From: Candidatus Eiseniibacteriota bacterium
Lineage (GTDB): Bacteria; Eisenbacteria; RBG-16-71-46
Assembly: GCA_016223045.1 (NCBI GenBank)
Contig: JACRPT010000042.1
Coordinates: 1 to 48,781, forward strand
Direction of reading: 5' to 3'
Length of the DNA: 48,781 nt
A program made the translations under genes and the position numbers. The notes beneath the pieces are model-generated. The model made no database searches, was not told the origin of the DNA, and worked only from the letters and a program-made list of their open reading frames with translations. Shown one piece after another: positions 5,543 through 11,202 of this stretch (positions are counted from its first letter, which is position 1; the number at the start of each line of letters is the position of its first letter).

Positions 5543-5564
5543 GCGCTGAGGCGTCCCTCAGCGC
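5543..5564 (+). terminator. Intrinsic terminator for the propeller gene
   Basis: GCGCTGAGG (5543-5551) and CCTCAGCGC (5556-5564) form a perfect 9-bp stem with a 4-nt loop, followed by TTATTCTT on the plus strand. The stem includes the stop codon of the convergent AtuA-type gene. Confidence 0.7.
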
Positions 5565-7390
5565 TTATTCTTCGGTCGCGTTGGCGGGGCCGTCACGCCG
5601 TCCGCCGCGTCCCCGCGCCGCGCCCCCTCGAGCAACGCGCGCGGGGCCTTCACCTCCATCGCCAGCAGGGCGTGCGCCAGGGTCTTGCCCTGTGCGTCGA
5701 GCCGCAGCGACTGCGTGCCGCCGCCGCCCAGCGACTGGTGGAGCAGGAAGTTGAGCGCCTGGAGATTGGGCACCTCGTGGCGCACCACCTTGCCCAGGCA
5801 GATGCCCTTGAAGCGCCGCTTCACCACCGCCGCGGTCAGCGTGCGCCTGAGCCACGGGTAGATCCCGGGTGCGCGGGCGATGACGCCGATGTTGCAGGTG
5901 TCGCCCTTGTCGCCGCTGCGCGCGTGCGCGAGTCGCGACAGCGCGACCGCAACCTGTTTCTGGCTCCCTTTCGCACGCGGCCACTTCTCCTTCTCGAGCC
6001 GCGCCGGGCGGCGCGGCGGCACGACCGGCGTCGGCCACTCCAGCTCGCGCTGGCGCGAGCGCGTCACGATCGTGGCCTTGACGCGGTCGCGCGGCACCAG
6101 CGCCGGCCAGTACGCGACCACCTCCTGCCGCTGCGGGCGGCCGCCCGTGACCGCCACGCCGGGCGGGCCCGAGAGGATCACCGCCGGCACCATCTTCGAG
6201 AACTGCTCGATCTTCAGCTTGTCCGCGTCGCGCACCGAGAGCCGCAGCAGCACCTCGGCCGGCTGCGAGGGCGGCGCGAGCGGCCCCCAGCACGCCGAGT
6301 GGCCGACCAGCTCCGCGTGCTTCTCGGCGAACTCGAGCCCCAGGCGCTTCCAGAACAGCTCGGTGAAGGCGCGCGCCTTCTCGACCGCGTCGGGCGCCGA
6401 GATGATGAGCGTGCCGCTCGCCTTCCAGCCGTCGAAGTAGGAGGCGCTCACCTTGAGCGAGCCCGGTGCCGGCCGGCCCTTCACGCCCCACACGCGCACC
6501 CGGTCGCGTCCCGCCTGCTCGAGGCGGATCGAGCCGAAGTCGGCGACCACGTCGGGCGTGATGTAGCCGCGCGGATCGCCCATCTCGTAGACCAGCTGCT
6601 CCTTCACCGTGCGCACCGTCACCGCGCCGCCGGTGCCGGCGTGCTTGGTCACGACGAACGAGCCGTCCGGGAAGGCCTCGACCACCGGGTAGCCGATGCG
6701 GTCGAAGTTCCGCACGCGGCGCCAGTCGGTGAAGTTGCCGCCCGTGCTCTGCGCGCCGCACTCGACGATGTGCCCGGCGACGATCCCGGCGGCCAGCCGG
6801 TCCCAGTCGTCGGCCTTCCAGCCGAAGGCGTGGATCATCGGCGCCAGCGTGATGCCGGTGTCGGTGCAGCGTCCGGTGACCACGATCTGCGCACCGCCCG
6901 AGAGCGCCTCGACCACCGGCCAGGCGCCGTAGTACGCGTTCGCCGAGGAGACGCGCTCGCGGATCGCGGCGAACCGCGCGCCGTCGTCCATGTTGTCGAG
7001 CGTCACGCCCGCCCCATTCAGTTCGCCCAGCCGCTCGAGCAGGTCGTCTCCGACCACGCACGCCACGTCGAGCGGGTGGCCGTTGCGCTGCGCCATCTCG
7101 AGCAGCGCGCCGCGGCAGGCGAGCGGATTCACGCCACCCGCGTTGCTGATGACACTGGCGCCGCGCTCCGCGAGCAGCGGCAGCGCCTGCTCGACCTGGG
7201 CCACGAAGTCGCGCGCGTAGCCCGCGCGCGGGTCGCGCGCGCGCTGCTTCTGCATGATGGACATGGTGATCTCGGCCAGGAAGTCGAGCGTCACGTAGTC
7301 CACCGGACCCAGCTCGAGCTGGCGCCGGAACTGCGACAGGTCATCGCCCCAGTAGCCGCCGGCGTTGGCGATGCGGATCGAGTCGCGCAT
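5558..7390 (-). CDS. AtuA-type protein (DUF1446 plus C-terminal ferredoxin-fold domain)
   Basis: 610 residues. The DUF1446 domain covers about residues 5-455, with IRIANAGGYWGDD at the start, GASVISNAGGVNP, VTGRCTDTGITLAP, and HIVECGAQSTGGNFTDW. A second domain at about 480-590 contains LAHARSGDKGDTCNIGV and the following VVRHEVPNLQALNFLL, which is the AtuA-like C-terminal unit. AtuA is required for acyclic terpene (citronellol/geraniol) catabolism in Pseudomonas, though its chemistry is not settled. Other atu genes (carboxylase, dehydrogenases) are not adjacent. The ATG at 7390 begins MRDSIRIANAGG, which matches the family N-terminus. Family assignment is strong and substrate is unknown. Confidence 0.88.
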   Translation of the reverse strand: MRDSIRIANAGGYWGDDLSQFRRQLELGPVDYVTLDFLAEITMSIMQKQRARDPRAGYARDFVAQVEQALPLLAERGASVISNAGGVNPLACRGALLEMAQRNGHPLDVACVVGDDLLERLGELNGAGVTLDNMDDGARFAAIRERVSSANAYYGAWPVVEALSGGAQIVVTGRCTDTGITLAPMIHAFGWKADDWDRLAAGIVAGHIVECGAQSTGGNFTDWRRVRNFDRIGYPVVEAFPDGSFVVTKHAGTGGAVTVRTVKEQLVYEMGDPRGYITPDVVADFGSIRLEQAGRDRVRVWGVKGRPAPGSLKVSASYFDGWKASGTLIISAPDAVEKARAFTELFWKRLGLEFAEKHAELVGHSACWGPLAPPSQPAEVLLRLSVRDADKLKIEQFSKMVPAVILSGPPGVAVTGGRPQRQEVVAYWPALVPRDRVKATIVTRSRQRELEWPTPVVPPRRPARLEKEKWPRAKGSQKQVAVALSRLAHARSGDKGDTCNIGVIARAPGIYPWLRRTLTAAVVKRRFKGICLGKVVRHEVPNLQALNFLLHQSLGGGGTQSLRLDAQGKTLAHALLAMEVKAPRALLEGARRGDAADGVTAPPTRPKNKR

Positions 7391-7480
7391 GGGTCTCGGG
7401 TGCGAGGGAGCGGTTCGGTGCTGCGTTTCGGACGCGGCATGCTAGCACAGGGGCGCCGGGGCCTCGCGGCCGGGGGAGTG

Positions 7481-7520
7481 GCCGGGGGAGGCGCGCTGAT
7501 CGAGCCGCGGGCAGGGCGCG
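7481..7520 (+). repeat. Repeat copy A, degenerate, upstream of the YhcG-type nuclease
   Basis: The stretch around GGGGAGGCGCGCTGATCGAG matches the core of copies B and C at 7525-7564 and 8736-8775. In the frame ending at TGA it reads ...GEAR-stop, close to the nuclease C-terminus GETR-stop. Confidence 0.5.
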
Positions 7521-7524
7521 ATTG

Positions 7525-7564
7525 CGGCGAGGGAGACGCGCTGATCGAGGCGGCGGCCGGACGG
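7525..7564 (+). repeat. 40-bp direct repeat copy B, upstream of the YhcG-type nuclease
   Basis: This 40-bp block matches 8736-8775 at 36 of 40 positions by eye, without gaps. In frame it spells AARETR-stop, the same end as the nuclease gene (AAGETR-stop), and the match continues 21 bases past the stop. The nuclease gene lies between the copies. Confidence 0.8.
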
Positions 7565-7596
7565 CGCCGGCGGCGGACAGGCCAGGTCCTCGCTCG

Positions 7597-7625
7597 CTGA
7601 CGTCGTGTTCACCTTCCAGTACAAT
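7597..7625 (+). promoter_or_regulatory. Promoter for the YhcG-type nuclease
   Basis: CTGACG (7597-7602), 17 bases, TACAAT (7620-7625). The ATG at 7677 lies about 45 bases below the predicted start of transcription. This independent promoter sits between repeat copy B and the gene. Confidence 0.55.
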
Positions 7626-7676
7626 GCCGGCAGCGCCCCCGCGCCCCCGCCGACCTGTCCCCGGCGCAGGTGAGCC

Positions 7677-8756
7677 ATGCATGAGAAGACCCGTCGCGCG
7701 ACCAGGCTCGCACGCCCGAAGTCCGCCGCGCCCGCCCGCAGCCGCCTCATCACCGACATCCGCAAGCTCATCGAGTCCGCTCGCTCGCGGACGGCGCAAA
7801 CCGTCAACTCCCAGCTGGTCCTGCTCTACTGGAACATCGGAGTGCGGATTCGGAGGGACATCCTCAGGGAGAAGCGCGCGGCGTACGGGGAGGAGATTGT
7901 CTCCGCACTGGGGAGACAATTGACGCGCGAATACGGGCCGGGCTTCAGCTCCCGGAATCTGTTCAACATGGTCCGCATCGCGGAGGTCTTCCCCAGTGCC
8001 AGGATTGTGCACACACTGTGTGCACAATTGAGCTGGTCCCACCTCCGGTCGATCATCTACCTCAAGGACTCCCTCCAGCGCGAGTTCTACGTCGAGATGT
8101 GCCGGATCGAGCGCTGGAGCGTCCGCACCCTCAGGGCCAAGATCGCCGGCATGCTCTTCGAGCGCACCGCCATCTCGAAGAAGCCCGCGCACCTCGCGCG
8201 CCGTGAGCTGAAGGCGCTGCGCGAGGAGGACCGGATGACTCCGGACCTGCTCTTCCGCGACCCGTACTTCCTCGACTTCCTGGGGCTCAAGGACGCCTAC
8301 GACGAGCAGGACCTCGAGGCGGCGATCCTGCGCGAGCTGGAGCGGTTCATCCTCGAGCTGGGCGCGGGCTTCACCTTCGTGGCGCGGCAGAAGCGCATCA
8401 CGGTGGACTACGACGACTACTACCTCGACCTGCTCTTCTTCCACCGTGGGCTGCGCCGGCTGGTCGCGGTCGAGCTCAAGCTCGGCAGGTTCCAGGCGTC
8501 GGACAAGGGACAGATGGAGCTCTATCTCCGCTGGCTCGAGCGGCACGAACGGAGGGAAGGCGAGAGGTCGCCGATCGGTCTGATCCTCTGCGCCGGGAAG
8601 TCCGCCGAGCATGTCGAGTTGCTGGAGCTCGAGCAGAGCGGCATCAGGGTCGCCGAGTACCTGACCGAGCTGCCGCCGCGCCGGCTGCTCGAGGGCAAGC
8701 TGCACGAGGCCGTCCGGCTGGCGCGGGAGCGGCTCGCGGCGGGGGAGACGCGTTGA
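7677..8756 (+). CDS. YhcG-type (DUF1016) PD-(D/E)XK nuclease
   Basis: 359 residues, the usual length for the family. The N-terminal winged-helix-like DUF1016_N domain covers about residues 25-175 (VNSQLVLLYWNIGVRIRRDI, GPGFSSRNLFNMVRIAEVF, LSWSHLRSIIYLKD). The C-terminal nuclease domain carries DYYLDLLFFHRGLRRLVAVE followed by LKLGRF, so the PD-(D/E)XK core is D...ExK, then GQMELYLRWLERHE. YhcG proteins are predicted nucleases found in mobile and defence-like settings, and their biological role is not established. The ATG at 7677 follows CGGCGCAGGTGAGCC. The gene stands alone and is bracketed by 40-bp direct repeats that include its own last codons, suggesting duplication or transposition. 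Confidence 0.9.
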   Translation: MHEKTRRATRLARPKSAAPARSRLITDIRKLIESARSRTAQTVNSQLVLLYWNIGVRIRRDILREKRAAYGEEIVSALGRQLTREYGPGFSSRNLFNMVRIAEVFPSARIVHTLCAQLSWSHLRSIIYLKDSLQREFYVEMCRIERWSVRTLRAKIAGMLFERTAISKKPAHLARRELKALREEDRMTPDLLFRDPYFLDFLGLKDAYDEQDLEAAILRELERFILELGAGFTFVARQKRITVDYDDYYLDLLFFHRGLRRLVAVELKLGRFQASDKGQMELYLRWLERHERREGERSPIGLILCAGKSAEHVELLELEQSGIRVAEYLTELPPRRLLEGKLHEAVRLARERLAAGETR

Positions 8757-8775
8757 TCGAGACGGCGGGCGGACG
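8736..8775 (+). repeat. 40-bp direct repeat copy C, at the 3' end of the YhcG-type nuclease
   Basis: The partner of 7525-7564. The first 21 bases encode the last codons AAGETR plus stop of the nuclease. The remaining bases are non-coding and are also shared with copy B, so the similarity is not explained by coding constraint. Confidence 0.8.
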
Positions 8776-9203
8776 TGATGGCGATGGGCCGGTGCTCCGT
8801 CGGCCGGGCCGCGCCTGCTCCTGCGCCTGCAACCGATGTGTCCTTCACCTGGCTTCCACGCTGCGCGCACGCATGCCAGGCACGCGCCGCTCCCGGGCGA
8901 AACACCGCTGGGCATCGCCTCCGGCCGGAGGTAGGCTCGGCCGCGTGCGCACGAGAGTGCCCGCCCGTCACCGCGCGCGATCGTGCCACGCCCTGGTGTT
9001 GTGGGCGATCCCGGTCGGCCGGAGCGTCGCGCATGCCCTCGGTCGCCAGGCTCTCCTGGCCGCAGCGAGTCGCCAGGCATCCGCCGGCGCTCCTCCGGCG
9101 CGACGCCCGCCGCCGGGCGGGCCGACCGCACCACGCGTGGCGCCGGCACTCTCCGGGCGCACGAGGCTGCTGGTCCTGCGAAAGGACGAAAGGAGACCCT
9201 GCC
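8757..9203. other. Intergenic stretch, no gene seen
   Basis: About 450 bases between the nuclease and the TolB-like lipoprotein. Apart from repeat copy C at its left edge and some short GC-rich inverted repeats near 9090-9125, I see nothing I can name. Open frames crossing it lack family patterns. Confidence 0.5.
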
Positions 9204-10310
9204 ATGCGCACGCGCTTCATCACACTGCTCTTCAAGGCGATGATCGCCGCTGCCGCCGCCGGCTGTGGGAGCCACACGGACACGCTCGGCCCCGGAGGAC
9301 CCGCGCCCGCGGACACCATCCCCACGGTCAAGAGCCTCTCCGTCCTCGAGACCGACGCAGGGAGGGTGGCCTGGTCCCAGGACGGCTCGCTCATCGCCTA
9401 CGACAAGATCGGAGCGGACGGCTATGCGGACGTATGGATCATGAACCCCGACGGCACGAACAAGGCCAATCTCACGGACGGGAAGCCGGGCCTCCCGGGC
9501 AAACACATGGGGAACCCCGCCTGGCACCCATCGGGCGACTGGATCGTGTTCCAGGCGGAGAGGGCGGTTCATGTCGGCAGTTCGGATCAAGCGGCGCCCG
9601 GGGTCGGGCTCTTCAACGACCTCTGGGCGATCAAGCGCGACGGCACCCGCTCGTACCAGCTCACCACCATCACCGCGGGCTGCGCCACGCTCCATCCGCT
9701 GTTCTCGCACGACGGGGCCAGCATGCTCTGGTGCGAGAGCGGGAGCGGACTGACCGACTGGGCAGTCAAGCTGGGGGACTTCCTGGTCCTGGCGGACAGC
9801 GTCTCGCTGAGCAATGTCCGGACGCTCCGTCCGGGCAACCCGTCGGGCGCGGTGTTCTACGAGACGGGCGGGGACTTCTTCCCGGACAATCAGACCTTCA
9901 GCTTCACCGGCAACCTGGAGCCCGGGCAGCACTGGACGGGGATGGACATCTACACCTTCCAGCCGGCCACGGCGTCCCTGAGCCGTAAGACCCAGACCAT
10001 GACCGAGTGGGACGAACATGGACACGTGTCACCCGACGGCAAGTGGATCGTCTGGGCCTCGACACGAGGCTACGCGTTCGATCCCGTGACGCTGGCTGGC
10101 TACAGGATGGACCTCTGGGTCATGAGAGCCGACGGGTCGGGGCAGCAGCGCCTGACGTACTACAACGAGCCGGGACACGCCGAATACACCGGCCAGCCGA
10201 TGGTCTGCGGCGACCTGGCATGGAGTCCCGATGCCTCGAAGATCGTCGGATACGTGTTCATCTTCGGACAACCCAACCATGGCAACGTCGTGAAGTTCGA
10301 GCTGGAGTAG
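9204..10310 (+). CDS. TolB-like (PD40) beta-propeller lipoprotein
   Basis: 368 residues. The N-terminus (MRTRFITLLFKAMIAAAAAG, then C) ends in an AAGC lipobox, so it should be lipidated at Cys21. PD40/TolB blades follow: VAWSQDGSLIAYDK, DVWIMNPDGTNKANLT, NPAWHPSGDWIVFQ, HVSPDGKWIVWAST and LAWSPDASKIVGYVF. The lack of an N-terminal TolB domain and of tol/pal neighbours argues against TolB itself. It is a surface or periplasmic propeller of unknown ligand. The start is the ATG after GAAAGGAGACCCTGCC. It is followed directly by the 13-bp repeat array. Confidence 0.8.
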   Translation: MRTRFITLLFKAMIAAAAAGCGSHTDTLGPGGPAPADTIPTVKSLSVLETDAGRVAWSQDGSLIAYDKIGADGYADVWIMNPDGTNKANLTDGKPGLPGKHMGNPAWHPSGDWIVFQAERAVHVGSSDQAAPGVGLFNDLWAIKRDGTRSYQLTTITAGCATLHPLFSHDGASMLWCESGSGLTDWAVKLGDFLVLADSVSLSNVRTLRPGNPSGAVFYETGGDFFPDNQTFSFTGNLEPGQHWTGMDIYTFQPATASLSRKTQTMTEWDEHGHVSPDGKWIVWASTRGYAFDPVTLAGYRMDLWVMRADGSGQQRLTYYNEPGHAEYTGQPMVCGDLAWSPDASKIVGYVFIFGQPNHGNVVKFELE

Positions 10311-10349: not shown

Positions 10350-10508
10350 GCGATCTCGCACCCGCGATCTCGCACGCGCATCCCGCGCCCGCATCCCGCG
10401 CTCGCATCCCGCGCCCGCATCCCGCGCCCGCATCCCGCGCTCGCATCCCCCGCTCGCATCCCGCGCCCGCATCCCGCACCCGCATCCCGCACCCGCATCC
10501 CGCGCCCG
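10350..10508. repeat. 13-bp tandem repeat array (about 12 units)
   Basis: From about 10378 to 10508 the unit CCCGCATCCCGCG (variants CTCGCATCCCGCG and CCCGCATCCCGCA) recurs with an exact 13-base period. The adenine of GCATCCC falls at 10380, 10393, 10406, 10419, 10432, 10445, 10458, 10471, 10484 and 10497. Two diverged units with CGCGATCTCGCA precede it. The period is not a multiple of three and no frame around it looks coding, so it is a non-coding minisatellite. There are no spacers, so it is not CRISPR. It lies between the lipoprotein stop and the bioY promoter. Confidence 0.9.
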
Positions 10509-10611: not shown

Positions 10612-11202
10612 ATGTCCTCGACCCGCTCGCTCACCCTCGCCGACGTCGCGCTGCCGCGCACCGGCGCGCTCACCGACACCCTGCTGGTCCTCGGCGCGAG
10701 TCTGGTCACCGCCCTCGCCGCGCAACTCGCGTTCCCGGTGCCGTGGTCGCCGGTGCCGATCACCGGGCAGACCTTCGCGGTGCTGCTCTCGGGGCTGGTG
10801 CTCGGCTCGCGCCGCGCGTTCCTGGCGCAGGTGCTCTACCTGGCCGAGGGCGCGGCGGGGCTGCCGGTGTTCGCGGCGGGCAGCGCGGGCGCGCTGGTCT
10901 TCGCCGGTCCGACCGCGGGCTACCTGCTCGCCTTCCCGCTCGCGGCCGCGCTCACCGGCGCGCTCGCCGAGCGCGGCTGGGACCGGCGCTTCCTCACCAT
11001 GGTGGCGGCGATGCTGCTCGGCAGCGCGGTGATCTTCGCGCTGGGCTGCGTGCTGCTCGCGCGCTTCGTGCCGCCCGGGCGGCTGCTCGCCGCGGGGCTG
11101 CTGCCGTTCCTCCCGGGGGACCTCGTCAAGGCGGCCCTCGCGGCGCTGGCGTTCCCGGCCGCGTGGCGCTTCGCGAACCGTCGCCACGGACCCGACGCGT
11201 GA
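10612..11202 (+). CDS. bioY: Biotin transporter substrate-capture protein BioY
   Basis: 196 residues and five to six hydrophobic segments. The BioY signature is clear: VPWSPVPITGQTFAVLLSGL, followed by GSRRAFLAQVLYLAEGAAGL and GPTAGYLLAFPLAAALTGAL. BioY is the S-component of ECF-type biotin importers and can transport alone in some bacteria. No ECF ATPase or BioN gene is visible here. The ATG at 10612 follows CCGAGGTGCCC. Its stop overlaps the GTG of the 3-hydroxyacyl-CoA dehydrogenase as GTGA, so the two are co-translated. Biotin supply would serve acyl-CoA carboxylases, which fits the acyl-CoA genes downstream. Confidence 0.93.
   Translation: MSSTRSLTLADVALPRTGALTDTLLVLGASLVTALAAQLAFPVPWSPVPITGQTFAVLLSGLVLGSRRAFLAQVLYLAEGAAGLPVFAAGSAGALVFAGPTAGYLLAFPLAAALTGALAERGWDRRFLTMVAAMLLGSAVIFALGCVLLARFVPPGRLLAAGLLPFLPGDLVKAALAALAFPAAWRFANRRHGPDA

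Follow-up and report, generated by a model that had tools for sequence, protein, structure and literature searches.

Within the window, the whole stretch of 48,781 nucleotides that we have analyzed, a gene of the DUF1016/YhcG family lies between a gene of the AtuA family on its left and an ORF with a match to PD40 on its right, with BioY beyond. The gene is bracketed by direct repeats, and its coding sequence contains two palindromes. The features and their coordinates are collected in the table.

Table. Features of the DUF1016 locus and its neighborhood; positions are numbered from the first nucleotide of the window.
Feature	Position	Strand	Remarks
AtuA-family gene, left neighbor	5558..7390	-	conserved in relatives
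Repeat copy 1	7479..7518	+	weaker; matches copy 2 at 30/40 and copy 3 at 29/40; lies 45 nt ahead of copy 2
Repeat copy 2 (left flanking copy)	7524..7563	+	ends 113 nt ahead of the start codon
Putative inserted unit, 1172 nt, one gene	7564..8735	+	between copies 2 and 3
Sigma-70-like promoter CTGACG-17-TACAAT in the insert	7597..7625	+	consensus match only
DUF1016/YhcG (PDC-S02) gene, 359 aa	7677..8756	+	
DUF1016_N domain (PF17761), residues 27-163	7755..8165	+	
Intragenic palindrome 1, ATTGTCTCCGCACTGGGGAGACAAT	7896..7920	.	11/12 pairs
Intragenic palindrome 2, ATTGTGCACACACTGTGTGCACAAT	8004..8028	.	12/12 pairs; unique in genome
YhcG_C PD-(D/E)XK nuclease domain (PF06250), residues 192-338	8250..8690	+	
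Repeat copy 3 (right flanking copy)	8736..8775	+	encodes AAGETR, the final six codons, plus the stop
ORF with PD40 match	8775..10310	+	likewise missing between AtuA and BioY in relatives
BioY	10612..11202	+	directly beside AtuA in relatives L085, L086, L095

Both domains of the family are found in the protein, DUF1016_N and YhcG_C, with E = 2.6e-45 and 2.3e-45 respectively, and the PADLOC profile PDC-S02 matches with E = 6.6e-127. The gene is present in a single copy in the genome. No solved relative of the protein was found by sequence; in an AlphaFold2 model (mean pLDDT 81.5, pTM 0.49) the fold of the nuclease domain is closest to that of NucS/EndoMS. The family has been predicted to be related to YraN-like nucleases of the Holliday-junction-resolvase type (Kosinski et al., PMC1189080), and the carriage of DUF1016 genes on mobile elements has been described (PMC4316617). 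The protein shares with the family both Pfam domains, the PDC-S02 match and the NucS/EndoMS-like fold, and there is no difference at the protein level. Judged from its sequence the gene is an ordinary DUF1016/YhcG nuclease, for which the PADLOC phage-defense label PDC-S02 is a candidate assignment only. The flanking duplications and the coding palindromes go unmentioned in the papers on the family that were found.

The gene unit is small and is flanked immediately by copies 2 and 3 of the repeat, which agree in their best register at 36 of 40 positions. This is the identity given in the initial annotation, with the first copy shifted by one base (7524-7563 in place of 7525-7564). Both copies spell the end of the gene as had been described there, reading AARETR-stop and AAGETR-stop, while the match extends 19 bases beyond the stop codon at 8754-8756 and not 21. 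The weaker third copy ending in GEAR-stop is likewise present, reading WPGEAR-stop, and lies at 7479-7518 instead of 7481-7520. The match to the PDC-S02 profile stops at residue 354, where the right-hand repeat starts, and thus the last codons and the stop of the gene look to be derived from the repeat.

Aside from a tandem array at 10362-10480, no pair other than copies 2 and 3 reaches 34/40 matches at a distance of up to 2 kb anywhere in the 48.8-kb window. The array has a 13-nt unit, with copies at multiples of 13 nt, and lies close to where the PD40 ORF ends, ahead of BioY. When the flanks are aligned with each other the DUF1016 gene scores 30, compared to a maximum of 20 in 285 placements of the same size elsewhere in the window. 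A 19-nt core of the repeat occurs without mismatch at three sites in the 3.88-Mb genome, all of them at the DUF1016 locus. Four further matches in the genome each have two mismatches, and a control with the reversed pattern gave none. The initial annotation had held that a repeat widespread without DUF1016 genes would count against its reading; what we find is an exact core that is confined to this locus. A viral contig matches the core of the 40-mer (one match of 19 nt, 24/40) in an unrelated context, and this was taken as chance.

There is no matching inverted pair bounding the insert of the kind that terminates insertion sequences, and neither a transposase nor an integrase lies between copies 2 and 3, where the DUF1016 gene stands alone. 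The insert has a G+C content of 67.2%, compared to 72.1% for the window, and contains one promoter-like site where shuffled sequences have a mean of 0.0.

The DUF1016 gene is missing from the 19 genomes of the same family that were searched, bar one distant homologue of 35% identity, and AtuA is found in 18 of the 19. In three of the relatives (L085, L086 and L095) AtuA has a BioY-like gene as its immediate neighbor, and the DUF1016 gene and the PD40 ORF therefore occupy an interval that is short in the relatives. The initial annotation had proposed looking in related genomes for the 40-bp sequence with and without the gene. Gene-free relatives are thus available, while a single-copy empty site was not found among those of the same family, where intergenic DNA is unalignable at this distance. 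The best matches of the core to this intergenic DNA are 14-20/27, which we take to be the level of chance. A search of phages gave no close pair of occupied and empty sites, with 14 distant matches only, and E. coli genomes searched with a DUF1016 query from an Aeromonas plasmid gave only two distant plasmid matches.

We have aligned the upstream flank with the downstream flank for a set of 134 DUF1016 genes (ORFs of at least 250 aa, the window gene being excluded), scoring a direct repeat where the alignment reaches at least 20. Flanking direct repeats are found at 34 of the 134 genes, a count that may be slightly inflated by dispersed repeats, probably at L055, L072 and L080. When the downstream flank is reverse-complemented the number drops to 3/134, and for shuffled sequence to 0/134. 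Neighboring unrelated ORFs in an earlier set of loci gave 9/144; seven of these are in loci whose DUF1016 gene has a repeat, which leaves about 2/144. About 75% of DUF1016 genes have no detectable flanking repeat.

At the other loci with repeats the intervening DNA is always 1.0-1.8 kb in length and holds one gene. The repeat itself has a different sequence at each locus, as target DNA would from one insertion to the next, and this holds across the DUF1016 family. The repeat is the 3' end of an acyl-CoA dehydrogenase gene in L059 (53 nt), that of a short-chain dehydrogenase in L181, and that of a RecN-like protein in L221 (115 nt), where two DUF1016 ORFs are arranged in tandem, each placed after a recN tail. 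In L017 it is the start of a T5orf172 gene (29 nt), and it supplies the DUF1016 gene with both start codon and stop. The last codons of the DUF1016 gene itself lie inside the repeat in L270, L017 and others, as they do in the window.

These comparisons separate the readings that were first offered for the locus. A mobile cassette having its own tail as target is not in accord with repeats that differ at each locus and are host DNA where they can be identified; the tail of the DUF1016 gene is therefore more likely to have been borrowed from the target. Absence of the repeat beside homologues had been regarded as evidence against a connection with the gene. This absence is real for the 40-mer, but not for the phenomenon, since those homologues that show it have repeats of their own, which is what an origin from target DNA would lead one to expect. 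An insertion scar, also suggested at the outset, gains support from the gene-free relatives in which AtuA adjoins BioY, together with the direct repeats flanking genes across the family.

We therefore favor, with reasonable though not strong confidence, an origin of the window locus as a one-gene insertion with a long target duplication, in which the stop codon has been borrowed from the target. On this view the DUF1016 gene, bringing along its leader and promoter-like site, would have inserted singly into the intergenic region between AtuA and BioY, so that some 40 bp of target DNA came to lie at either end of the insert. The right-hand copy would supply the last six codons and the stop, and on the left a further, diverged copy, 45 nt farther outward, would have been present beforehand or been gained later. 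The likeliest course is the repair of a DNA break in such a way that a long staggered or re-copied stretch of the target flanks the newcomer. We infer the target origin of the window repeat, insertion rather than loss, and the manner of cutting and duplication. The copies differ at 4/40 positions, and so the event may be old or the origin a different one, and the presence of the PD40 gene in the same interval means that more than one event may be needed.

The three copies in the window, where insertion with a target duplication should leave two, speak against this origin, as do the failure to find a single-copy empty site among the relatives and the roughly three quarters of DUF1016 genes in which no flanking repeat is detected. 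The upstream copies could instead be what is left of tandem DUF1016 genes that arose by one or two duplications and then decayed to their tails. They are in register and both resemble the last codons of the gene, and tandem DUF1016 genes are known from L221. However, past the 40 nt themselves no DUF1016 coding sequence is recognized ahead of either copy, and a DUF1016 tandem offers no explanation of the host-gene repeats at other loci; we consider such relics rather improbable. The gene might also have inserted into a pre-existing array of 45-nt units, in which case the repeats were there first and nothing was duplicated on entry. The 45-nt spacing of copies 1 and 2, which are just 75% alike, leaves room for some repetition that pre-dates the gene. 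Yet it is the copies astride the gene that are most alike, and the core does not rise above chance in the intergenic regions of relatives, which makes an older array the more doubtful of the two. We think it very unlikely that the DUF1016 protein binds or processes the repeat and that selection has kept it at both ends of the gene for this reason. Such a role would be consistent with confinement of the repeat to the window locus and with the family-specific palindromic site found near the ends of DUF1016 loci, but the 40-mer proved not to be palindromic, and elsewhere DUF1016 loci are flanked by another repeat or by none. Chance similarity, for which the 72% G+C might be held responsible, is barely credible against the margin of the flank score over 285 placements and a core that is unique genome-wide.

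An insertion with target duplication has border direct repeats in common with insertion sequences and site-specific integrative elements. The window insert differs from these in having neither transposase nor integrase, and in repeats that are variable in length and different at each site. The usual target duplications of insertion sequences are shorter than the repeats seen here. A closer likeness is provided by restriction-modification genes: comparisons of genomes have led to the proposal that these insert with "long and variable target duplications" (Nobusato et al. 2000 Gene 259:99, as cited in PMC3031569). Such insertions similarly involve a small gene unit, no transposase, and long variable target repeats whose sequence differs from site to site. 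In the DUF1016 case, unlike these, a solitary nuclease gene is inserted and the target copy gives it its last codons and stop, and the window locus is without a close pair of empty and occupied sites. The initial annotation knew of no described mechanism for DUF1016 genes. That holds for DUF1016 itself, where a literature search for direct repeats found nothing, a novelty that is provisional because most subscription papers fell outside the search; a similar mechanism is described for the restriction-modification genes (PMC3031569).

RhuM (PF13310) was picked as another orphan accessory family. Flanking direct repeats are found at 9/40 RhuM genes (inverted control 1), and at 5/29 genes each for ORF6N and Bro-N (inverted control 0 for both). 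The duplication is thus shared by a class of one-gene insertions and is not specific to DUF1016. The DUF1016 nuclease was considered as the maker of the flanking duplications; this is weakened by the three control families, and on present evidence the duplications are not ascribable to it. Genes of the DUF1016 family appear to be mobile on their own, with no transposase, and to leave duplicated target DNA behind. At one Bro-N locus (L342) both of the flanking direct repeats start with the palindromic motif TGTCCGAAAAAATCGGACA, of a type seen inside Bro-N genes.

The two palindromes within the window gene lie in helices that are confidently modeled by AlphaFold2, comprising residues 74-82 and 110-118. 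A 25-bp palindrome with at least 9/12 pairs, a single-base center and a fixed codon phase is found in the coding sequence of 119/136 DUF1016 genes, including palindrome 2 of the window gene, and sits upstream of the nuclease domain. There are 104 distinct arms among the 119, and the arms vary yet stay complementary. They form 1270/1428 Watson-Crick pairs, compared to a mean of 719 (maximum 760) when the right arms are shuffled among the genes; this and the other shuffles overstate the significance, because sites were chosen for a good palindrome before shuffling, a flaw of which the comparisons with other phases and with control ORFs are free. All four types of pair occur at pairs 4-9, and G-T pairs in just 0-3 of the 119. 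The near-absence of G-T pairs at these variable positions disfavors an RNA hairpin as the reason for the palindrome.

Using one common statistic, at least 11/12 pairs are found in 71/134 DUF1016 genes, in 30/40 RhuM genes and in 2/117 control ORFs. Covarying palindromes are present in RhuM (L229-L268; 390/420 pairs compared to 236 shuffled), in ORF6N (L300-L329; 257/276 compared to 186) and in part of the Bro-N genes only (L330-L359; 149/168 compared to 80), each family having its own consensus and codon phase. We have discarded the notion that the flanking repeats are palindromes generally. Five of the 34 contain one, compared to 88/1700 random segments, and among these a palindrome of the family type is present only in L185 and L207; there is none in the window repeat. 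Since the window 40-mer is not palindromic, the repeat and the coding palindrome are separate observations at this locus.

Palindromes are also observed outside the genes. Sequences of this class, taken as ATT...AAT with at least 10/12 pairs, have a density of 0.28 per kb up to 100 nt from DUF1016 genes, compared to 0.04 per kb at 100-600 nt, and none of this class is found in 163 kb of RhuM loci. The yhcG site of E. coli, between gltD and nanQ, was viewed in L290/L291, L222, L223, L292, L298 and L299. The joined gltD-nanQ flanks are mostly covered by one place in 947/5426 complete E. coli genomes. The two such sites that were read, both without yhcG (L290 and L291), have one DUF1016-type palindrome each, and that of L291, ATTCGCCAGACAGTGTCTGGCGAAT, recurs unchanged within the yhcG gene of E. 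coli B. In K-12 (L222) there are palindromes after gltD and after yhcG, at both borders of a multi-gene gltF-yhcG island, and strains with yhcG alone have the right-hand palindrome only. The yhcG gene of E. coli B (L223) is broken off at the edge of its own internal palindrome. The intergenic E. coli palindrome may also act as a terminator between convergent genes.

The duplications and palindromes might be brought together in a single reading, which we put forward tentatively and regard as possible rather than probable. DUF1016, RhuM, ORF6N and some Bro-N genes would be one-gene mobile units that are flanked by target duplications and carry the ~25-bp coding palindrome as their own site of recognition or cleavage, with border palindromes as the targets. 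As parts of the same tentative reading, the arms would diversify with base-pairing kept at the level of DNA, the palindrome would be cut as a cruciform or bound by the gene product, and target palindromes would be those at the borders of E. coli gltD-nanQ, L185, L207 and the Bro-N locus L342. If this were true, the same nucleotides would both encode the enzyme and carry its site. Should the covarying palindromes be the site of action, these genes would amount to minimal mobile genes of a new kind, and would provide a first handle on recognition by DUF1016 and RhuM proteins; the palindromes merit separate study. The apparent movement of single genes with duplication of the target turns an oddity of one gene into a testable statement on a widespread and uncharacterized nuclease family, represented by YhcG in E. 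coli K-12.

A genus-level search with recN found a sole congener of the L221 genome (L294). In this congener it is RhuM, and not DUF1016, that follows recN. The intergenic stretch between recN and RhuM contains a palindrome, CAGACA-C-TGTCTG, that resembles those in DUF1016 genes and is perhaps a DUF1016 relic.
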